A stretch of DNA of 64,000 nt from Peptococcaceae bacterium CEB3 (GTDB lineage Bacteria; Bacillota; Desulfitobacteriia; Desulfitobacteriales; Desulfitobacteriaceae), in contig LDXJ01000062.1 in NCBI GenBank assembly GCA_001029295.1, positions 186,001 through 250,000 on the forward strand, in the 5' to 3' direction. The number at the start of each line of letters is the position of its first letter. The first letter of the stretch is position 1. Below are positions 9,682 through 22,242 of the stretch, one piece after another. The notes beneath the pieces are model-generated. The model was not told where the DNA came from and searched no databases. It saw only the letters and a program-made list of their open reading frames with translations. The position numbers and the translations under genes were made by a program.

Positions 9682-10362
9682 TTGGATTTTAATAGTGTGT
9701 TAGAGCAGAATCCGGCAGTAACTGTCAGCAGTGAAGAAAGTGAAAGCTTTATGAAACTTGCCAAACGGATGACACTTAAAGCCGGTGAGACAATTTTTGA
9801 AGAAGAAAACTCCGCTCACTTCGTTTATCTAATTGAAACAGGTCACATAAAAATCTTTCGGATTTCCCCTTTCGGAAGGATTGTCACGGTCGGTATCCGA
9901 AAAGGCGGCGATGTCATCGGAATTGCTGAAGTGCTCCGGGAGATGGACAGGTGCTGCTTTGCGAAAACGATCGAACCATCTGTCCTATGGAAGATGGATG
10001 GCAACACATTTAAAGAATTGCTGTGTTGCCGCCCCCAGCTCGCCCTGAAAATTGCAGCCACCCTTAGCAATCGCCTTAGGGAGGCCGAGACAACCATATT
10101 AAATCTTATGACATTCGAAGTTGACAGAAGACTTGCCAGGCTGCTTCTTTCCCTAGCAGAAAAAGGGGTCTCTCCAGGAGAAAAGGGGCTAAAGCTGAAT
10201 ATTAAACTGACTCAAGATGAAATTGCTACGATGATTGGAACTTGCCGTCAAACAGTGACCACGACCTTGCATAAATTTAGGGAACAGAAACTTATTTACT
10301 CCAGTAAAAGGAATATCGAAATTACTGATCTTGAAAACCTAAAACGATTTGCTGAGCTTTGA
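9682..10362 (+). CDS. Crp/Fnr-family transcriptional regulator
   Basis: A 226-residue regulator. Residues about 20-135 form a cyclic-nucleotide-binding-like beta barrel (GETIFEEENSAHFVYLIETG, GDVIGIAEVL). Residues about 165-215 form a winged helix with the recognition motif TQDEIATMIGTCRQTVTTTL. It starts at TTG 9682 after a GGGGGGG run. No FNR-type N-terminal cysteine cluster is evident. It lies directly upstream of, and in the same direction as, the anion transporter and apr-type genes, with two hairpins between, so it may control them. In clostridia and sulfate reducers Crp/Fnr members such as HcpR regulate redox genes; assignment to that group is only a guess. Confidence 0.9.
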   Translation: MDFNSVLEQNPAVTVSSEESESFMKLAKRMTLKAGETIFEEENSAHFVYLIETGHIKIFRISPFGRIVTVGIRKGGDVIGIAEVLREMDRCCFAKTIEPSVLWKMDGNTFKELLCCRPQLALKIAATLSNRLREAETTILNLMTFEVDRRLARLLLSLAEKGVSPGEKGLKLNIKLTQDEIATMIGTCRQTVTTTLHKFREQKLIYSSKRNIEITDLENLKRFAEL

Positions 10363-10454: not shown

Positions 10455-10649
10455 GGAGGCATTCTTCTCCGGTGACTGAACAGAATAATAAGGATCACTA
10501 ATATTTATTATCAGTTTTTCTGATTTTTTCTTTGCGAATGTCTACTGAACGACATACGTACTTGTGAGCACATGGTACAATCGTGATGAGATTCAGGTCT
10601 GGCCAGAAGCCCGGGCAGGCTGCGTTAGGCTAAAGAAGTCTTAGAAAGG

Positions 10650-12278: not shown

Positions 12279-14030
12279 ATGACTCAATCTCAGCCAAACA
12301 ATTTAGATGAAATCCAAGAAGAACATTTGGAAGCAGATATTTTGATTATCGGGGGAGGCAATGCCGGCTGTTTTGCTGCTATTGAAGCAAAAAAGATGAA
12401 TTCCAAACTGAAAGTAATCATTATGGAAAAAGCTCATATCGACCGCAGCGGGTGTCTTGCCGGTGGTATGGATGCCATCAATACCTACCTCCCGAAGGAT
12501 AAGACTCCGGAAGACTTAGTCCGCTGGAGCCGCGCACAGGCCGGCGGTCTTCTCCGGGAGGACCTGGCACTGGAAATCTCCAGATGCCTGAACGAACCCA
12601 TCGAGGAATGGGAACGTTGGGGACTTCCGATCAAAAAGAATGACAACGGGGATGCAAAGTATCGCGGTCAGTGGGATATTTCCATTCAAGGTTCGGAAAT
12701 GAAACCCATTCTGGCAGAAAAAACAAGGGAAATGGGCGCAGAAGTTGTCAATAGAGTTGTCGCGACGAATCTGCTTTTTGACGGGGAAAAAGTTGTCGGC
12801 GCGATGGGTTTCGGAGTCAGAGACGGCAAATTCTACTCTATCAAGGGAAAAGCCACCATCGTGGCTACCGGTGGCGCCGGCGGACTCTATAAGCCCTATA
12901 CGAACGACGGTAATGACTCGCACCACCAGATTTGGTATTGTCCTTTTGACACGGGAACCGGATATGCGATGGGGATTCGCGCCGGAGCGGAAATGACGAC
13001 TTTTGAAATGCGCTGGGCAGCAGTTCGCACCAAGGATTTTAATGGCCCAATCGACACGATCTCCGTCTGTTACAAGACTCCGATGGTCAACGCAAAAGGA
13101 GAAAAGTTCTTGGCCGAACGTTATGCCGAGTATGGCGGAGACAAAGCACCCCGTTACATCCGGGCCAATGCTCCTATGGAAGAAGTCCTGGCCGGTCGCG
13201 GACCGATCTATGTCGATACACGGCAAATGACTCCTGAGCAGATCAAAGAAATGAAGACTGACTACCTTAATGAGCGTCCTTCTTTCGTTCTTCACCTGGC
13301 TGCCAACGGACACGACATCGGCAAAGAACCCATTGAAGTCTATGGCAGTGATCCATATATCGTCGGGGGACATACAGCCAGCGGTTATTGGCTGGATGAG
13401 AACTGGCAAACAACGCTGCCTGGGTTATTTGCATGCGGAGATGTCGCCGGTGGGGTTCCCAATAAATTTGTCGGAGGATGCGGGGCTGAAGGGCTACTCT
13501 CTGCTCGCGGAGCAGTGGCTTACATCGAAAGCATCGGGGACCTGAATTGTGACCTAACGGAACAGCTGTCGGCTGAAAAGGCCAGGATTTTCAGTCCACT
13601 CTTTACGAATGAAGACGGTGTTCTCCCCCGCTGGATGGAAGAAAAAATGCAGCGCATTATGGACGAATACGCCGGCGGGGTGCATCAATTTTACCGCATG
13701 AATGAAGAGCGTTTAGACAATGCTTTGCGCCACATCAGAAAGATGAAAGAACAGGTTAGATTTCTCTACGCCAAAGACCTCCATGAGCTGATGCTTGCCC
13801 ATGAGGTTATTGACCGCTTGGATGTGGCTGAAGTCCTCATCTATCACCTAAAGTACCGTAAGGAAACCCGTTGGCCCGGTTGGCAGACCCGGATGGACTA
13901 CCCAGAAAAGAATTCCGCCCTGGATTGTTTTGTCAACTCCAAACTGAACCGCGATACCGGCGAAGTAGAAGTTTTCACAAGGCCTTATGAGCAGATCGTT
14001 CCCGGTGATCGTTATGAGCCTAATCTATAG
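12279..14030 (+). CDS. aprA: AprA-family flavoprotein (adenylylsulfate reductase alpha subunit-like)
   Basis: A 583-residue FAD flavoprotein of the fumarate reductase/AprA superfamily. The dinucleotide motif IIGGGNAG lies at residues 23-30. RSGCLAGGMDAINTY (56-70) and GGLLREDL (89-96) match AprA text. The pair R245/R250 in EMRWAAVRTKDFNGP and H365 in GGHTASGYW align by eye with the substrate-binding arginines and histidine of AprA. The family reduces APS to sulfite and AMP with a ferredoxin-like partner, and such a partner follows immediately. It is shorter than typical AprA (about 620-665 residues) and lies before, not after, aprB. A related but different oxidoreductase remains possible. RBS AAGGAGG precedes ATG 12279. 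Confidence 0.8.
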   Translation: MTQSQPNNLDEIQEEHLEADILIIGGGNAGCFAAIEAKKMNSKLKVIIMEKAHIDRSGCLAGGMDAINTYLPKDKTPEDLVRWSRAQAGGLLREDLALEISRCLNEPIEEWERWGLPIKKNDNGDAKYRGQWDISIQGSEMKPILAEKTREMGAEVVNRVVATNLLFDGEKVVGAMGFGVRDGKFYSIKGKATIVATGGAGGLYKPYTNDGNDSHHQIWYCPFDTGTGYAMGIRAGAEMTTFEMRWAAVRTKDFNGPIDTISVCYKTPMVNAKGEKFLAERYAEYGGDKAPRYIRANAPMEEVLAGRGPIYVDTRQMTPEQIKEMKTDYLNERPSFVLHLAANGHDIGKEPIEVYGSDPYIVGGHTASGYWLDENWQTTLPGLFACGDVAGGVPNKFVGGCGAEGLLSARGAVAYIESIGDLNCDLTEQLSAEKARIFSPLFTNEDGVLPRWMEEKMQRIMDEYAGGVHQFYRMNEERLDNALRHIRKMKEQVRFLYAKDLHELMLAHEVIDRLDVAEVLIYHLKYRKETRWPGWQTRMDYPEKNSALDCFVNSKLNRDTGEVEVFTRPYEQIVPGDRYEPNL

Positions 14031-14117
14031 GTGTTAGCATGGATTCATGTTTAGTTTTGTTTCCAAATCTCCAAAACGCTAGTATTACATCAGTAATGTG
14101 GAAGGAGTGTCCTGACA

Positions 14118-14471
14118 TTGGCGCCAAAAGTACTGTTAAATAAATGCGACGGCTGCAAAGCCGAAAAAGAACCTCTTTGCGAACAGATTTGCCCAGGCGA
14201 CCTGATGACCCTGGGAACCAATGGCAAAGCGATCTGCCGTGACCCCAGAGACTGTTGGGACTGTATGTCCTGCGTCAAAATTTGTCCGCAAGGGGCAATT
14301 GAAACAAGGGTTCCCTATCAAATCGGCTACCACGAAGCCAAACTGATTCCCATGATGGGTACAAACCGTATCACATGGACCTGTGTTGACATCGACGGTA
14401 ATGTTGAACGCTTTGTGGTCAAAAATCACAATGAAGCAGATGACGATAATGATGATGATGACGATGACTAA
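14118..14471 (+). CDS. aprB: AprB-like ferredoxin subunit with acidic tail
   Basis: A 117-residue two-cluster ferredoxin. Cysteines at 10, 13, 21 and 25 and the motif CWDCMSCVKICPQGA (46-60) are laid out as in AprB, which passes electrons to the FAD of AprA. The following strand ITWTCVDIDGNVERFVVKN also matches the AprB C-terminal beta segment that wraps the alpha subunit. This supports the APS-reductase assignment of the neighbour more strongly than AprA alone does. It starts at TTG 14118 after GAAGGAG. The C-terminus is a run of mostly aspartates (about residues 104-117), encoded by a GAT/GAC repeat, which is unusual. It is shorter than typical AprB (about 150). Confidence 0.85.
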   Translation: MAPKVLLNKCDGCKAEKEPLCEQICPGDLMTLGTNGKAICRDPRDCWDCMSCVKICPQGAIETRVPYQIGYHEAKLIPMMGTNRITWTCVDIDGNVERFVVKNHNEADDDNDDDDDD

Positions 14472-14581
14472 GTTAAGTTGAAAATGCTGATTTGTCAGCT
14501 GCGCCCTTCATGGGTACAGCTGACATTAGAACAAAGCGGGGTTTCACTTGGAACATTTTCGCTTAACCAGGAGGAGAACCT

Positions 14582-16297
14582 ATGCCAAACTCCGTTGATG
14601 TTGTGCTTTGTCACTGTCAGGAAGATTCATCCGCTCGGCTGGATCTGGAACGCTTGACCGAAAAGCTGAGCAAGAATAAAAAAATATCCCAGGTTTACGT
14701 TGTTGAACACCTCTGTTCAATGGCAGGAACTAAGAAGTTCGTTGAAATAGTTCGAAACAACCAACCCAGTGGGTTAGTCGTGGGCGCTTGTGCCGCGGAA
14801 ACACTTCATCAGCGGCTCTCTCCCTGCATCAGAAAAGCTGGCATGGGGGAGCAAACTTGCGCCACGGTTCCCTTACGCGAGTTAATCTTATGGTCTTATC
14901 GGGGTGAAAATATTCTCCGGGCGGCTAGGGATTTAATAAAAATGGCAGTCAGCAAAATCCGGAATGGTGTAGATAGCGCAAATAGGACCGCTAGAAGCGC
15001 CATGATAAACTATCTGAAATGTGATAAGTGCAAACGTTGCATGGAAGAATGCCCCATTGGCGCTTACTCTCTGAATTCCGAGGGATATCCGCAAGTCAAC
15101 CAGGACTTATGCCAATGTTGCGGTATTTGTGTGGGCGGTTGCCCGATACAGTGTATTTCTTTGCCTGATCTACGGATTGAAGAGCTCAGCAGTGAAATTC
15201 GTGCCATTAAAGGAGACGGCAGCGAAGAGCCCATACTTCTGACATTCTGCTGTGAACCTCTCACTTACCCTGCTTTAATGAGAGAAATTGCTTTAGGCAC
15301 TTCCTTGCCGCCAAACATGCGAATTATCAGAGTGCCCTGCATGGGTGCTGTCAATGCGGCCCTGATCAATGATGCCTTAGCCTCGGGTGTGGACGGCGTA
15401 CTGCTCTTAGGCTGTGAGCAGGGCTCTTGCCAAATTCGCCAAGGCGACATCCTTGCAAAAAAGCGTTTGGAAAACCTGAGAGAGACATTAACGAGAATGA
15501 TGTTTGAAAATGAACGCGCCCAATATCTGGGCTGGCCGGAGGAAAAAAGACCGGGAATATTCGTAGACCCGGAGCGCTGCAACGGCTGTCTGACTTGCCG
15601 GCAAGTGTGTCCGTTTGACGCGGTTGTCCCAAGTAAGATATTGATTAGAGGCAAGGAACGACTCATCTCTGAACGGGATACCCAAGCCTGCCGCTCTTGC
15701 GGAATCTGTGCCGCCAACTGTCCGTCAGGAGCCTGTCAACCGATTTACTCAAGCGATGTGCGGTTATTGAATACCATTGATGCTTTTTGTTCGAATACCG
15801 TTAAAACCTCCGGCTCAGATACGGCTGTGTTATGCAATTGCAGCGGAAAGCTTGAGCAGTATCTCGACTTTGAGCAATTAGAGGAATCTTTGTACAGGTG
15901 CGGCTTCAACCAGGTACTCGTCGAGGATCGGCTCTGTAGTGAACATGCGTGGCAAGATGTTACGAAGAGACTAAGTACTTGTCCTGCTCATGGAGTGATT
16001 GCTGCCTGTGCCAAAGACCTTTTCGGCATCCGAATGAAAAAACATCAAAAAAATATCGGATTAGAGCCTGATCAATGGTCCTTCGTTGATCTGTGGGAGA
16101 AAACCCTGATTTGCCCTTATGATCGAAGTGCGGCTGCTAAGTTATGTTTCCAGGATGTGCTGGCGGCTTTAGCCGGCCTGCCAAGAACAAACGGCTCACA
16201 GCTTCAGGCAGACGGTGAAGAGACTCTCTTTCAACGGCAAATTGGACTTTATGCCGAAACAATACGGAGTCTAGGACCAAACCCGTTGAAACAATAG
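14582..16297 (+). CDS. HdrA/QmoB-like multi-cluster iron-sulfur protein with central MvhD-like domain
   Basis: A 571-residue cytoplasmic electron carrier. The order is: an HdrA-like N-terminal segment (GACAAETLHQRLSPCIRKAG), a pair of 4Fe-4S motifs near residues 147 and 177, an MvhD-like domain with conserved cysteines (VPCMGAVNAALI, GCEQGSC), a second pair of 4Fe-4S motifs near 333 and 370, and an HdrA-like C-terminal part. QmoB proteins combine HdrA and MvhD parts, but this one has no GxGxxG FAD site that I can find. It follows aprAB by about 110 bases with RBS AGGAGGAG. It probably hands electrons between the Flx-like genes downstream and AprAB; that is inference. Confidence 0.75.
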   Translation: MPNSVDVVLCHCQEDSSARLDLERLTEKLSKNKKISQVYVVEHLCSMAGTKKFVEIVRNNQPSGLVVGACAAETLHQRLSPCIRKAGMGEQTCATVPLRELILWSYRGENILRAARDLIKMAVSKIRNGVDSANRTARSAMINYLKCDKCKRCMEECPIGAYSLNSEGYPQVNQDLCQCCGICVGGCPIQCISLPDLRIEELSSEIRAIKGDGSEEPILLTFCCEPLTYPALMREIALGTSLPPNMRIIRVPCMGAVNAALINDALASGVDGVLLLGCEQGSCQIRQGDILAKKRLENLRETLTRMMFENERAQYLGWPEEKRPGIFVDPERCNGCLTCRQVCPFDAVVPSKILIRGKERLISERDTQACRSCGICAANCPSGACQPIYSSDVRLLNTIDAFCSNTVKTSGSDTAVLCNCSGKLEQYLDFEQLEESLYRCGFNQVLVEDRLCSEHAWQDVTKRLSTCPAHGVIAACAKDLFGIRMKKHQKNIGLEPDQWSFVDLWEKTLICPYDRSAAAKLCFQDVLAALAGLPRTNGSQLQADGEETLFQRQIGLYAETIRSLGPNPLKQ

Positions 16298-16339
16298 ACC
16301 GCGGAGTTCATTTGTGCTATGACGATAGGAGTGAATGAG

Positions 16340-16777
16340 ATGGAGTCTCATGTTCAAAATTCATCTGGCTGGACGCCGTTAATTATTGGCCTTGTCTGTG
16401 AGCACAGTCCGTCATCCATAGTGTCCTGGCATGAATCCAACGACCCGGGCTATCCGGATTTTCGCTGTCTGCGAGTCCCCTGTGCCGGAAGAATTAATCC
16501 TCAATATATCTTAAGGGCTTTTCAAAAAGGGGCCGACGCAGTTCTTGTGGCAGGCTGTCCTTCGGGCAAATGTCATTATCCAAGCGGGAATTATTATGTC
16601 CGGCACCGTTTGCAGCTGATCACAGAACTTCTACAATTCATGGGAATGGAAAAAGAACGCATCCAGGTAAAATGGACAGACAGCATAGAGGGGGAAGGCT
16701 TGAGGGAAACGGTAAGACGGATTGCCCGGGAGGTCGAAAAAATGGGGCCCAATAAGCTGTTTAAGGAGGAGTTATGA
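16340..16777 (+). CDS. MvhD/FlxD-like hydrogenase iron-sulfur subunit
   Basis: A 145-residue protein of the MvhD family, which carries a 2Fe-2S cluster and links an electron donor to HdrA-type proteins. The family cysteines show in VPCAGRINPQYILRAFQKGA and GCPSGKCHYPSGNYY. I chose ATG 16340 because AGGAG lies 8 bases upstream; the ATG at 16319 would add seven residues without a good ribosome site. It overlaps the next gene by four bases (ATGA), so the two are translationally coupled. In Flx-Hdr complexes FlxD is the MvhD-like partner that docks on HdrA. Confidence 0.85.
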   Translation: MESHVQNSSGWTPLIIGLVCEHSPSSIVSWHESNDPGYPDFRCLRVPCAGRINPQYILRAFQKGADAVLVAGCPSGKCHYPSGNYYVRHRLQLITELLQFMGMEKERIQVKWTDSIEGEGLRETVRRIAREVEKMGPNKLFKEEL

Positions 16778-17718
16778 ATCAGCCGCTGATTATCGAAATG
16801 CGAACAATCGCCCAGAAACTCTTAGCCGCTCGGACGGTGGGAACAATTATTGGCTGGGAAAAAGGAAGCCGCTGGTATCTAACCCCGCCCGCATTCATTC
16901 ACAACGAAGATCAAGTGGAACGACTTTATTTCGACCGGTTTGCAGTCAATAATTTGGCAAAATATCTCCTGGACTATCGTGATTCAGATAAAAAAGTGGC
17001 GGTATTTGTTAAGGGATGCGACAGCCGGGGGATTATCCGTCTCATCCAGGATAACCAGCTGAAAAAGGAAAATATCATTGTGATTGGCATTCCCTGTGCC
17101 GGTATGTATGATCGGGCCAAAGCAGAGGATCCCGAAAATCCCCACGATCTCCCTTTACTAAACAAATGTCTGGAGTGCAGGTATCCTAATCCTGTCTATG
17201 CGGACCACTTGGTTGGTGAAGTATCTGTTTCCTCAGAGCCGGGACGACCTACCGGAATTTATTCCGGCTTTGCAACGGCTCAATCCGTAGGCTCAACAGC
17301 TGACCGCCGCTTTGAGGCAGCCGACACACTGAATAGTTTACCATCCGGACAAAAGGCGCTTCTTTGGCAAACTCATGCTGAAAGATGTTTGCGCTGTTAT
17401 GCCTGCCGCAATATCTGTCCTGCTTGCAATTGTGCGGGGTGCATTTTCGATTCCGATAGAAAGCAGTGGACGACGAAAGCTGCCCTGCAGTCTGCCAACA
17501 GCTTTTTTTTGGTAACAAGAGCCATGCATGCGGCAGAGCGCTGTGTCGAGTGTGGTGAATGCGAGCGGGTTTGTCCTGCCGGTATTCCCCTGATGAGTTT
17601 AAACCGCCTTGTAACCAAAGAAATCAACCGCACATGTGGGGCCTACGATGCAGGAATTGAACTGGAATCTTCCCTTCCGTTAAGTCACTTCAACCTGGCG
17701 GTAAAAGCCGGTTCCTGA
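16774..17718 (+). CDS. FlxC-like 4Fe-4S protein (HdrC/FrhB-related)
   Basis: A 314-residue iron-sulfur protein. The N-terminal half holds VKGCDSRG near residue 83, IPCAGMYD near 108 and KCLECRYPNP near 130, a cysteine layout known from FrhB-like and Hdr-associated proteins. The C-terminal half carries two 4Fe-4S motifs, CLRCYACRNICPAC near residue 205 and CVECGECERVCPAG near 256. The start overlaps the MvhD-like gene, and the next gene follows after 12 bases. By position and cluster content it corresponds to FlxC-type subunits. It acts in the cytoplasm, since no membrane segment or signal peptide is visible. Confidence 0.7.
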   Translation: MNQPLIIEMRTIAQKLLAARTVGTIIGWEKGSRWYLTPPAFIHNEDQVERLYFDRFAVNNLAKYLLDYRDSDKKVAVFVKGCDSRGIIRLIQDNQLKKENIIVIGIPCAGMYDRAKAEDPENPHDLPLLNKCLECRYPNPVYADHLVGEVSVSSEPGRPTGIYSGFATAQSVGSTADRRFEAADTLNSLPSGQKALLWQTHAERCLRCYACRNICPACNCAGCIFDSDRKQWTTKAALQSANSFFLVTRAMHAAERCVECGECERVCPAGIPLMSLNRLVTKEINRTCGAYDAGIELESSLPLSHFNLAVKAGS

Positions 17719-17730
17719 GGAGTTGCAAGA

Positions 17731-18753
17731 ATGAAGACATTAAATAAAATTAGTTTGAGCATGGTTTTAGAAATACTTTCCTCTTATGCTCCTTTATACG
17801 TACCTGCGGGAAATGAGACTTTCAGCGGTTTTGTACGCTATAGCGCAGGCCTTGAAGTACGTTTAGACAAGAATACGAAGCTTGGGCCAAAGTCCTTGCT
17901 TTTCCCCAAAGTCGAAAATATCTATAGCTATTCGAACCATGGAAAAGACACGGAAATATTTTCCGATCCGCAGGAAAACGAACCAACTATCATCTTTGGC
18001 GTCCGTTCTTGTGATCTTCAGGCCATTATTTGTCTCGATGACGTATTTTTGAACCGGACAAGCCGGGATGGAGTTAATGACTATAATTATCGAATTAGAA
18101 GAGGCAATGCGATAATTGTTGCCTTAGGCTGTCTCGAGGCGGACGGGGATTGTTTCTGTCAAGCGATGGGGGTTAATCCTAGTGAGCACGAACAAGCGGA
18201 TCTACAGTTATTCGACTTGGGAGAATTCTTTGGCGTTGAGAGTCATACCCCAAAAGGACTAAATCTAAGTCGTCTCCTCGAGAATTCAGGTCTGTTGGCA
18301 GAGAAGAAAGTAGATAAGCCCCTGCCAGCTTCCTTTTCTTTAACCGTTGACGCTCAAGGAATAACCCACAAGCTTCAGAAAATGTTCGACCATCCGCTTT
18401 GGGACGAACTAGGGGAGAAGTGTCTGAACTGCGGGGTTTGCACGTATGTATGTCCTGCTTGCCATTGTTTTGACATTTCTGTTTGTGCCAAGGACGGTTG
18501 CAACGGGGCTACCATTCGTTATTGGGATAGTTGCATGTTTTCACGATATACAGAAATGGCCGGAGGTCATAATCCCCGGCCCGGGAAGAAAGAAAAGGTC
18601 CGCCAGCGTTTTCTTCATAAGCTCAGGTATTTTCCAGAACGTTATGGCAAGTTCCTTTGTACAGGCTGTGGCCGCTGTGTAGAGTTATGTCCGGTTAATT
18701 TGGACATAACTGAGGTAATCCGACGAGTGAAGGAGGCGGAGATCGATGGCTAA
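17731..18753 (+). CDS. FlxB/AsrA-like 4Fe-4S dicluster subunit
   Basis: A 340-residue protein related to sulfite reductase subunit AsrA and hydrogenase beta-type subunits. It contains FGVRSCDLQA near residue 90, then two C-terminal 4Fe-4S motifs, CLNCGVCTYVCPACHC near residue 231 and CTGCGRCVELCP near 310. In Flx and Asr systems this subunit passes electrons between the flavoprotein (next gene) and further clusters. RBS GGAGTTGCAAG precedes ATG 17731, and the stop overlaps the next start by 8 bases. The absence of an AsrC (sirohaem) gene argues for the Flx-type role. Confidence 0.78.
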   Translation: MKTLNKISLSMVLEILSSYAPLYVPAGNETFSGFVRYSAGLEVRLDKNTKLGPKSLLFPKVENIYSYSNHGKDTEIFSDPQENEPTIIFGVRSCDLQAIICLDDVFLNRTSRDGVNDYNYRIRRGNAIIVALGCLEADGDCFCQAMGVNPSEHEQADLQLFDLGEFFGVESHTPKGLNLSRLLENSGLLAEKKVDKPLPASFSLTVDAQGITHKLQKMFDHPLWDELGEKCLNCGVCTYVCPACHCFDISVCAKDGCNGATIRYWDSCMFSRYTEMAGGHNPRPGKKEKVRQRFLHKLRYFPERYGKFLCTGCGRCVELCPVNLDITEVIRRVKEAEIDG

Positions 18754-19606
18754 CTCCCTTGACCGAGCGGCAACAGCCGATGATGTAAAGAGAATTAACG
18801 CGCTCCTTCCCGTCAAAGCAAAAATATTCCGCATTACTCAAGAAACTCCCGATGTTAAGCTCTTTAGTATTTCCACTCTTGATGGTCACATGCCTTTCCC
18901 GGTCTCACCGGGACAGTTAGTCATGCTTTCCGTTTTTGGGATGGGTGAAGCAATCTTTGCCGCCAGTGCCGGGGAAAACTGCCTTGAAGTAGCTGTGAAA
19001 AGAGTCGGCACATTGACAGAAGCCCTGCATGAGGCCGAAGTAGGGCAGACGATGGGTATTCGCGGACCTTATGGCAACGGATTTTCCCTTGATATCTGTC
19101 AGGGGAAGAACTTGCTCTTTATTGCCGGAGGAATAGGATTGGCTCCAATTCGCTCTCTCATTAAACATGTCTTGAATCACAGGAAGGACTTTGGCCATTT
19201 GCAGTTAATCGGCGGTTTCCGTTCTCCCAAAGACTTAGTCTTTAAAAGGGAGCTCACAGAAATCTGGCCGGCAAGCGAGGATTTTGATGTCACCATTACG
19301 GTTGATAAAGCCGGAGAAGATTGGCAGGGGCATGTGGGCTATGTCCCGGATCTCGTAAAGAAACTCAAGCCGCAATCGGACGAAACCGCGTGCATTTTAT
19401 GCGGTCCTCCTGTCATGCTAAAAAACACCTTCAATGTCTTAGAGGAATTGGCTTTTTCTCCGGAAAACATTCTCACAACTTTAGAAATGAGAATGAAATG
19501 TGGTATAGGCCAGTGCGGTCGGTGCAATATCGGTTCTTGCTATGTGTGTCTGGACGGTCCCGTGTTTAGTTTGGCCCAGTTAAGGGCTCTACCGGATGAG
19601 TATTGA
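18746..19606 (+). CDS. FlxA/AsrB-like FAD and NAD(P)-binding oxidoreductase subunit
   Basis: A 286-residue flavoprotein of the ferredoxin-NADP reductase superfamily, like AsrB, PyrK and FlxA. The FAD domain spans about residues 25-110 (FPVSPGQLVMLSVFG, GIRGPYGNGF). The nucleotide domain includes FIAGGIGLAPIRSLI near residue 125 and CGPPVMLKNT near 213. The C-terminal MKCGIGQCGRCNIGSCYVC binds a 2Fe-2S cluster. It most likely oxidises NAD(P)H and feeds the iron-sulfur subunits encoded upstream. It is the last gene of the run from 12279; all genes lie on one strand with short gaps or overlaps, and a hairpin follows at 19616. Confidence 0.85.
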   Translation: MANSLDRAATADDVKRINALLPVKAKIFRITQETPDVKLFSISTLDGHMPFPVSPGQLVMLSVFGMGEAIFAASAGENCLEVAVKRVGTLTEALHEAEVGQTMGIRGPYGNGFSLDICQGKNLLFIAGGIGLAPIRSLIKHVLNHRKDFGHLQLIGGFRSPKDLVFKRELTEIWPASEDFDVTITVDKAGEDWQGHVGYVPDLVKKLKPQSDETACILCGPPVMLKNTFNVLEELAFSPENILTTLEMRMKCGIGQCGRCNIGSCYVCLDGPVFSLAQLRALPDEY

Positions 19607-20260: not shown

Positions 20261-20484
20261 CAACGAGCTGACAAAAATGTTGAGCTCGCATTGGAACCGT
20301 CTGCCCGTTTAGTAGGCAATTGGCACCGTACCGTTGGTGAACCGAAGCATAGAGAATATACATAAAGACGAAATTTCTTTTAAGGGGGGAACTTTTCACC
20401 CCCTATTTGTATCTTTACTATGGTTTAGAGTTCATGAGGGAAGAAAAGAATGGTTTGAGAGAAGAGGGGAGGTGTGGGTGGAAG

Positions 20485-22242
20485 TTGACCGGACTAAATG
20501 AGGATCTCCTCGTACGCGCTCAAGCTGGAGATGTGCAAGCCTGGCAATGTCTTCTGGCTGAGATTTATCCTGAGGCCCTGCGCCAAGCCCGAACCCTGCT
20601 GCGTGATCGCGACTTGGCCGAAGACGCGGTACAGAATGCTCTGCTCAAGGTCTATTTGCATATCGGCTCCCTGAAGGCTCCTTCCGCTTTCCCCGGTTGG
20701 TGGCGGAGAATCTTAACGAACGAGACATACCTCATTCTCCGGTTGTACCGGCGCGAGACCCAGGGTATTCCCGACGGGGTTCTGAGAGATAGTGGTCTTG
20801 CCATGGACGAATGGATTGGCTTGCGTTTTGAGTTGGCCAAGGCTGTGCAAGATTTGGTCTTGGAGCAGCAGCAGGTGTTTATCGAAGTTGATCTCAAAGG
20901 AACGGCGCTCATGGATGTGGCTCGAGAAAGCGGTTGGGCATTGGGAACCGTCAAGTCACGCTTATTTCGGGCCAGGGAAAAACTCAGGAGTCTGTTAGGG
21001 GAGTTCGGGAGTCAGCGAAAGGAGACAAGAGCTATGGCCGAAGATTTTACCCAAACGGGTCTGAGAGTGAGATTCTACGATTACCTGGAGGGGACCATGG
21101 GTGGAGCCGAGCGGGCGGTATTTGAGGAGGAGCTGGAGCTTCGTCCCGAATGGGGACTTGAGTTAAAAAAACACAAGGATTTCCTCACTTTGCTCCATGC
21201 CTTGACAGGTAAGTTGGCTTTATCCCCGGCTGAGGTGGCGGATAAAATCAAGCAGGTGACGGAAAGCGTTGAGGACTATGAAAAGGTGGAAGAGGTTACG
21301 TATTTTGAACAGGGAGTCGCCCAGACCCTTCCGCCTTCCCATATATGGTTCAAACGTCCTCGCTTTCACCGGGTGGAGTCAACTCACCCTTCTTGGGGGG
21401 GAATGCACGTTATCGTACGGGAGAGTGAAGGTTTAACTCTGATGGAGAAAAACCGACAAGCCACTTGGATGAAAGTGAGTGATGCCTTCGCGGACAAGAT
21501 GGACCCGGGCTTTGCCGATACCCTGAGAACTATGGCTGCGGACAAATCGAGCAGCTTGCTGGGGACAGAGTTTATCGAGGGTCGTCCGGCGCTGCACATT
21601 CAGTTTAAGGAGCAGGTAAGCGGCAAGGGAGAGATGACTACTCATCTTTGGATGGACAAGGAAACTTGGATGCCGTTGGTCACAGAGTGGTACGATGTCG
21701 AGGGTCGGCTGGTCCAGCGTAAGATTGTTCGGGAGTTAAGGCTGAACCAAGGGTTGCCGGATTCTCTGTTCGAACTGTCGATTCCGGAAGGGTATGTGGT
21801 TACGGACAAACGCCAAGAGGAACTCCGGCCTATCGAAGAGATTTCCTGGGAGGAAGCCGCGTCCAGATTGGGCTTTGCGCCCTACTTGCTCCAGGTGGGC
21901 TTGGAGAACGAACCACTCAAGGCTAAGAACCAGTGGGTTACTGTTTCACCTGAGCGGGGAGCCTTGCTCAGCCAGTACACCGAACTGGGAAAACCTTTCC
22001 CCAAGCTGATGATAACGCAGGGCCCCATTAACCCAACCAATTTACCGGCGGGCGTGAAAACAAAGCCCGAACGTTTCGTCTTTGATCAACAGGAGGTTGA
22101 AGGGAAATATGTAGCTACGGATTTGTACCGGGTGAAAGGCATGCTGATTTGGCAGACGGATCAGTACCATTTCAGTTTAGGTGGGGACTATGAACTGGAC
22201 GAGCTCAAAGACCTGGCAGCCCGGCTGAAGAAGCTGGATTAG
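20485..22242 (+). CDS. ECF-type sigma factor fused to an anti-sigma/LolA-like C-terminal region
   Basis: Residues about 1-175 form an ECF sigma-70 factor: sigma2 near residues 27-60 (RDRDLAEDAVQNALLKVY) and sigma4 near 136-168 with the helix-turn-helix VARESGWALGTVKSRLFRAR. About 400 further residues follow: a short segment like an anti-sigma N-terminus (YDYLEGTMGGAERAVFEEEL), then a beta-rich region like outer-membrane lipoprotein-sorting (LolA) and DUF4367 domains. In most Firmicutes these parts belong to a separate membrane anti-sigma factor. No membrane span is visible here. I prefer TTG 20485 (GGGGAGGTG upstream, typical ECF N-terminus follows) over the frame opening at 20407. Confidence 0.8.
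   Translation: MTGLNEDLLVRAQAGDVQAWQCLLAEIYPEALRQARTLLRDRDLAEDAVQNALLKVYLHIGSLKAPSAFPGWWRRILTNETYLILRLYRRETQGIPDGVLRDSGLAMDEWIGLRFELAKAVQDLVLEQQQVFIEVDLKGTALMDVARESGWALGTVKSRLFRAREKLRSLLGEFGSQRKETRAMAEDFTQTGLRVRFYDYLEGTMGGAERAVFEEELELRPEWGLELKKHKDFLTLLHALTGKLALSPAEVADKIKQVTESVEDYEKVEEVTYFEQGVAQTLPPSHIWFKRPRFHRVESTHPSWGGMHVIVRESEGLTLMEKNRQATWMKVSDAFADKMDPGFADTLRTMAADKSSSLLGTEFIEGRPALHIQFKEQVSGKGEMTTHLWMDKETWMPLVTEWYDVEGRLVQRKIVRELRLNQGLPDSLFELSIPEGYVVTDKRQEELRPIEEISWEEAASRLGFAPYLLQVGLENEPLKAKNQWVTVSPERGALLSQYTELGKPFPKLMITQGPINPTNLPAGVKTKPERFVFDQQEVEGKYVATDLYRVKGMLIWQTDQYHFSLGGDYELDELKDLAARLKKLD

Follow-up and report, generated by a model that had tools for sequence, protein, structure and literature searches.

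What does an enzyme resembling adenosine 5′-phosphosulfate (APS) reductase do when its genes stand apart from sat and dsr? This question is raised by a locus of Peptococcaceae bacterium CEB3, lying in a 64,000-nt stretch of contig LDXJ01000062.1 (hereafter the window), in which homologs of aprA and aprB are followed by genes for Hdr- and Flx-like electron carriers. A preliminary description of this DNA had offered two ideas, a variant sulfate-reduction module or a route for another sulfur oxyanion, and we find the second to be the better one. The AprA encoded here belongs to a separate clade with an altered substrate pocket, which we label AprA3 (a name coined in this work), and its genes form a conserved cassette with a CRP-family regulator and a DASS transporter in genomes that carry dsrA and often lack Sat. 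From these observations, all read from sequence, we lean slightly towards a cassette whose reductase releases sulfite from an imported sulfo-anion other than APS and feeds DsrAB, in this organism via NAD(P)H and a non-bifurcating Flx/Hdr wire. We infer function throughout, and gene absences rest on assemblies of stated completeness, most of them in multiple contigs.

Gene content of the locus

The preliminary description had listed aprA-aprB followed by an FAD-less HdrA, MvhD/FlxD, FlxC, FlxB and FlxA, and all seven genes are indeed present on the + strand at 12279-19606. The unit exceeds these seven, as the genes for a CRP regulator and a DASS transporter directly upstream belong to it. Its features are listed below.

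9682..10362, + strand: CRP/FNR-family regulator with recognition helix R-Q-T (PF13545 and PF00027)
10539..10554, no strand assigned: operator-like palindrome TGTC-N8-GACA (TGTCTACTGAACGACA), present as a single copy in the window
10576..10581, + strand: -10-like hexamer TACAAT of a putative CRP-activated promoter, so assigned from its placement relative to the palindrome; the same in loci L038 and L040
10650..12155, + strand: DASS (SLC13) anion transporter (TIGR00785, 206 bits against a cut-off of 198.6; PF00939)
12279..14030, + strand: AprA3, AprA-like, with clade-specific residues
14118..14471, + strand: AprB3, two-[4Fe-4S] subunit with an Asp-rich C-terminal tail and a TTG start (TIGR02060; matches to 1jnr_B, 3gyx_B and 8a8o_C)
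14582..16297, + strand: HdrA-like Fe-S protein without FAD domain (PF02662, Fer4)
16319..16777, + strand: MvhD/FlxD-like [2Fe-2S] subunit (PF02662, 120 bits; VhuD, 88 bits)
16774..17718, + strand: FlxC-like subunit with an FdhB/FrhB-like C-terminal Fe-S region (PF13183; PDB 7bkb_E, FdhB)
17731..18753, + strand: FlxB-like Fe-S subunit of the HydB/AsrA family (NF040833, 172 bits; PDB 9nez_B)
18746..19606, + strand: FlxA-like NAD(P)H-oxidizing flavoprotein of the HydG/AsrB family (NF006220, 211 bits; PF00175; PDB 9nez_C)

The genes between 14582 and 19606 are closely packed, with short or overlapping junctions of 21, -4, 12 and -8 bases. AprB3 scores 85 bits against TIGR02060, under its cut-off of 135.65, and has eight cysteines in two 4Fe-4S motifs together with the Trp of CWDC. 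Its Asp-rich end (ADDDNDDDDDD, within 14436-14471) is absent from AprB of the Desulfosporosinus relatives L072 and L075. The HdrA-like protein is laid out as an HdrA N-domain, a ferredoxin domain, FlpD, a further ferredoxin domain and then a second Cys-rich part. A domain search found no FAD or Pyr_redox match in it, whereas such a domain is present in the 788-aa HdrA of Desulfovirgula (L044). In relatives with split homologs (L120, L123, L125), the second Cys-rich part matches a separate small gene, so the two genes seem to have been fused in the window HdrA.

The palindrome is centered at 10546.5, 41.5 bp upstream of the start site predicted from TACAAT; on that prediction, its spacing is the position of a class II activator. 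Exact TGTC-N8-GACA occurs in 21 of the 35 upstream regions, against 0.38 expected in shuffles. Most regulators with an R-Q-T/S recognition helix have the site, and it is absent where the helix reads R-P-T/S (L042, L044, L046, L118, L119). The same half-site is known from CooA, another CRP-family member (TGTCGGCNNGCCGACA, PMC545781). A generic promoter and terminator scan of this DNA performed at or near chance level.

The AprA3 clade and its substrate pocket

Family models and phylogeny place the window AprA apart from the dissimilatory enzyme. It exceeds the cut-off of NF005331 (PRK06854, 'adenylyl-sulfate reductase subunit alpha'; 641.6 bits against 557) and falls well under that of the dissimilatory aprA equivalog TIGR02061 (389 bits against 641.75). 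Its best PDB match is 8a8o, the alpha subunit of the 3′-phosphoadenosine 5′-phosphosulfate (PAPS) reductase of Methanothermococcus, followed by the APS reductase of Archaeoglobus fulgidus (Af). The phylogeny that the preliminary description had proposed as a check bears this out: among 86 aligned AprA sequences, 40, including that of the window, form the single AprA3 clade (support 0.96, stem of 0.40 substitutions per site).

The pocket of AprA3 combines strict conservation with replacement (Af numbering unless stated). N74, W234, R265 and H398, which hold the sulfo group and flavin, are unchanged in all 40 sequences, as is R317. By contrast, residues that contact the phosphate and ribose or line the channel in APS reductase (Y95, V273, G274, H446, F261 and F277, PMC2211403; Q145, also a contact, PMC10322725) differ throughout the clade, with Y95 replaced by W, G274 by D, H446 by N, F261 by W, F277 by S and Q145 by D, and with I or V at V273. 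Position 274 is Gly in all 46 of the other sequences compared. In total, 27 positions are specific to AprA3, among them an extra Arg at position 314, three residues ahead of R317. This pattern, though by itself no proof, is the one expected if the sulfo-group chemistry were retained and the leaving group had changed.

An AF2 model of AprA3 reached a mean pLDDT of 74.7, with the active-site segments 243-264 and 356-366 below 50; given this low confidence, we took no pocket geometry from it. The AprA3 of Peptococcaceae HOT.CON.130 (L046, 10001-11746) carries an in-frame stop, marking either a pseudogene or an assembly error.

Conservation of the cassette and co-occurrence with dsrA

We surveyed 36 AprA3 loci, a few of them near-duplicates, from Desulfosporosinus and its relatives, Desulfofundulus, Desulfovirgula, other Firmicutes, Nitrospirota and one bin labeled Burkholderiales. 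AprB is present at all 36, the CRP regulator at 35 and the DASS transporter at 34, and Sat is linked at none. The electron module is far more variable. One form is FAD-less HdrA with MvhD, joined by Flx genes at only three loci (L038; L040, where the contig ends; and L041), and five others have FAD-less HdrA with a small partner (L120, L121, L123, L125, L128). A further group has an HdrA of FAD-containing length with HdrC and sometimes HdrB (L042-L044, L045, L048-L050, L068, L069, L118, L119), and most Desulfosporosinus loci have no linked electron module. The locus of Desulfosporosinus sp. PR has no Flx genes and continues after MvhD with a carbonic-anhydrase-like gene (L039, 14598-15143).

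Because the electron module varies in this way, the NAD(P)H line is a lineage-specific attachment to a core of regulator, transporter and AprAB. The gene content supports the preliminary view that an AprAB-like pair goes together with a soluble electron line of the NAD(P)H type, while the Flx part does not hold up as the defining feature of the system. A literature search returned no description of the CRP-DASS-AprAB cassette, and the accessible parts of the literature on AprA-like paralogs mention divergent families, AprA3 not among them.

The genome of the host (5.3 Mb) belongs to the same genus as Acididesulfobacillus acetoxydans (G001/L038), whose window-type AprA is 96% identical. As the preliminary description had noted, the window holds neither sat nor dsr; Sat and dsrA each match one place only in the genome, on other contigs. 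Contig C63 carries a canonical sat-aprBA, with genes for a membrane pyrophosphatase and an Hdr-type membrane protein next to it, and contig C54 carries dsrA. A further AprA, of PAPS-reductase type, adjoins an APS kinase (C58:144815-147292; L002, L092), making the window AprA the third copy. Beside the C58 gene, a CysD-like match holds two stops, a sign of possible damage to the assimilatory pathway. With canonical sat-aprBA and dsrA elsewhere, the host is a complete sulfate reducer to which the window locus adds a further system, and we rejected canonical sulfate reduction as its main role. The idea of a variant sulfate-reduction module is unsupported for the same reason and on the strength of the subthreshold equivalog score, the separate clade and the changed nucleotide pocket; moreover, the cassette is also carried by dsrA-positive genomes that have no Sat, canonical AprA or CysD.

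To describe this distribution, Sat, AprA, CysD and dsrA were each scored with one family model. Because the scan of the genome collection used close-relative patterns only, the phyletic spread of AprA3 is a lower bound. In a phylum sample of 398 genomes, 15 carry AprA3, and all 15, spanning 13 genera, have dsrA (55 of 398 overall; Fisher p = 2e-14, relatedness uncorrected). No Sat, canonical AprA or credible CysD was found in 7 of these 15 carriers, one of which (G463) is a single contig and 99% complete. The same three were not found within the order in G016 and G014, each with a listed completeness of 100%, nor were Sat and canonical AprA in G039. Among dsrA-positive genomes, AprA3 is independent of Sat (8 of 24 with Sat, 7 of 31 without; p = 0.54). 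Strain PR of Desulfosporosinus nitrosoreducens is published as aprAB-positive, dsrAB-positive and sat-negative, without growth on sulfate (PMC11096178), and the only AprA found in it (G016/L039) is AprA3. Because the same package is present in many sulfite reducers, several of them unable to use sulfate, the cassette probably supplies sulfite from another imported sulfur compound.

Proposed function and alternatives

How might such a cassette work? The CRP-family activator would switch it on and the DASS protein would import the anion. Following APS-reductase chemistry, N5 of the reduced FAD in AprA3 would attack the -SO3 group and the remainder would leave; the N5-sulfite adduct would then give off sulfite, which DsrAB would take to sulfide. 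Electrons would pass from NAD(P)H to FlxA, FlxB/FlxC, MvhD, the FAD-less HdrA, AprB3 and finally the FAD of AprA3; without an FAD domain, HdrA would not be expected to bifurcate. Transport, reaction, direction and electron order are all proposals in this scheme, the last drawn from homology. Our guess at the substrate is thiosulfate, for which the leaving group would be sulfide (HS-), followed by other S-sulfonates or polythionates. The sister species of the host, A. acetoxydans, respires thiosulfate and disproportionates thiosulfate and sulfur (PMC8982180). This fits thiosulfate and does not single it out, since many dsrA-positive genomes have no AprA3 and the pocket aspartates could suit other substrates; the two new aspartates could, for example, accommodate amino or hydroxyl groups, as in an S-sulfonated thiol. 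In its boldest form, which we advance tentatively and with somewhat more doubt than confidence, the proposal is that a non-nucleotide sulfo-anion (e.g. thiosulfate or another S-sulfonate) is cleaved in the cell by a flavin-based, AprAB-derived reductase that passes sulfite to DsrAB. This would be an ATP-free counterpart of APS reduction and a missing entry route for Sat-less sulfite reducers, NAD(P)H-driven in one lineage.

Several points weigh against a sulfite-yielding reductase of this kind. Its substrate is conjectural, two invariant pocket aspartates are odd for a purely inorganic anion, and the reshaped pocket could bind a nucleotide. DASS proteins often transport carboxylates, and the potentials (about -0.40 V vs -0.32 V) make NAD(P)H a marginal electron donor for thiosulfate. 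The transporter itself offered no clue to the substrate, as its nearest solved relative, VcINDY, aligns weakly and the 26 linked DASS proteins aligned share only a conserved His-x-x-Asn motif. Eight Desulfosporosinus loci have no linked electron module, and 40 of the 55 dsrA-positive genomes in the phylum sample have no AprA3. Finally, dsrA was not found at threshold in the carrier with the interrupted AprA3 (G078/L046).

Three alternatives deserve consideration. AprAB3 could still reduce APS (or PAPS), as a second, NAD(P)H-linked and conditionally induced isoform with its own sulfate importer and APS from Sat elsewhere. The NF005331 score, the retained sulfo-group residues, Arg317 and AprB cysteines, and the presence of Sat in 8 of the 15 carriers are all compatible with this, and some DASS proteins are sulfate importers, certain ones adjoining sat/aprAB (PMC5840216). 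Such an isoform is nonetheless hard to place in the other 7 carriers, or in G016 and G014, where Sat, credible CysD and canonical AprA were not found, and strain PR does not grow on sulfate. Together with the clade-wide replacement of phosphate and ribose contacts, including the Gly invariant in the 46 other AprA sequences, this makes an APS reductase function of AprA3 doubtful and the isoform as a whole unlikely. We consider it quite unlikely that AprA3 reduces an unsaturated organic acid imported by DASS, akin to fumarate reductase of the same superfamily. DASS proteins commonly transport di- and tricarboxylates, the fold is shared, and the AprA3-specific Arg (residue 292 of the window AprA) aligns to the catalytic Arg motif of SdhA/FrdA. 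However, of His242, Arg286, His354 and Arg399, only the Arg286 motif finds a counterpart; structural matches to APS and PAPS reductases are far better (E of 6e-41 to 5e-31, versus 2e-21); and the strict co-occurrence with dsrA is left unexplained. Fumarate, like sulfite and dithionate, is not used as an acceptor by A. acetoxydans (PMC8982180).

Least likely of the three, and in our judgment very improbable, is an oxidative direction in which sulfite electrons reach NAD(P)+, either to detoxify sulfite or as the oxidative half of a disproportionation. It draws on the reversibility of AprAB in sulfur oxidizers and on the disproportionation of thiosulfate and sulfur by A. acetoxydans (PMC8982180). 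Many carriers are Sat-less, so that APS could not be turned over, and the presence of a dedicated importer suggests that the substrate is taken up from outside. The potential of NAD(P)+ is also too low to take electrons from sulfite/APS.

If the cassette does handle another sulfur anion, AprAB3 would be a candidate for a so far unassigned step that forms sulfite in the cytoplasm of Dsr-dependent Firmicutes and Nitrospirota, and APS-reductase chemistry could run without ATP activation. There is also a practical consequence. It is common practice to infer sulfate reduction from aprA; AprA3 scores as 'APS reductase' yet occurs in Sat-less sulfite reducers and would mislead, as illustrated by the aprAB-positive report for strain PR.

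Elsewhere in the window, a 611-aa frame at 20407-22242 joins a Sigma-70-like domain to a long C-terminal region. The region 31646-55517 encodes two MttB-family methyltransferases, an aromatic amino acid/histidine ammonia-lyase-like protein, a molybdenum hydroxylase, a glycine-betaine-type ABC transporter, two urocanases, a purine/allantoin-type permease and an amidohydrolase, and looks like a locus for catabolism of trimethylated histidine (hercynine or ergothioneine type).

Comparison with known systems

AprAB3 shares with dissimilatory AprBA (A. fulgidus 1jnr/2fja; host contig C63) its fold, the pairing of an FAD subunit with a two-[4Fe-4S] subunit, and N74, W234, R265 and H398. AprA3 differs in its ~35% identity, its replaced phosphate and ribose contacts and its A-B gene order, and the locus differs in having its own regulator and transporter, no linked sat or qmo, and an occurrence without Sat. 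Among solved structures the nearest is that of the Methanothermococcus thermolithotrophicus PAPS reductase (MtPAPSR, 8a8o), an enzyme which together with clostridial assimilatory copies such as that by cysC on host contig C58 is alike in its short AprA, fold and cofactors. However, the K120-R121-S122 PAPS loop of MtPAPSR is not kept (AprA3 has Q/K/R, W/F and D), and an Asp stands where PAPS would need room and positive charge. Nor does AprA3 show linkage to cysC, cysD or sat, and no APS kinase gene was recognized at the window locus. Nearer in sequence are Nitrospirota AprA (L055, L057, L060, L062, L070), ~50% identical to AprA3. These retain Tyr95, Gly274 and Phe/Tyr261 and adjoin sat and sulfite reductase, mostly with an Rrf2-type regulator, an arrangement never seen for AprA3 in the loci surveyed.

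On the electron-transfer side, the window locus resembles FlxABCD-HdrABC in having NAD(P)H-oxidizing FlxA/B/C-like subunits and an MvhD-type subunit that would feed an HdrA-like protein, as judged from homology to HydG, HydB, FdhB and MvhD. It differs in its HdrA without the bifurcating FAD domain, in lacking HdrB and HdrC, and in AprAB3 as the terminal unit; it is in other carriers alone (L042, L050, L118) that AprA3 has a linked HdrA containing FAD, accompanied by HdrC and in some cases HdrB. Compared with the QmoAB/HdrBC modules of Gram-positive sulfate reducers, it has no Qmo flavoproteins and no quinone link, and it has in common with them an HdrA-type Fe-S protein as the probable electron donor to AprAB.

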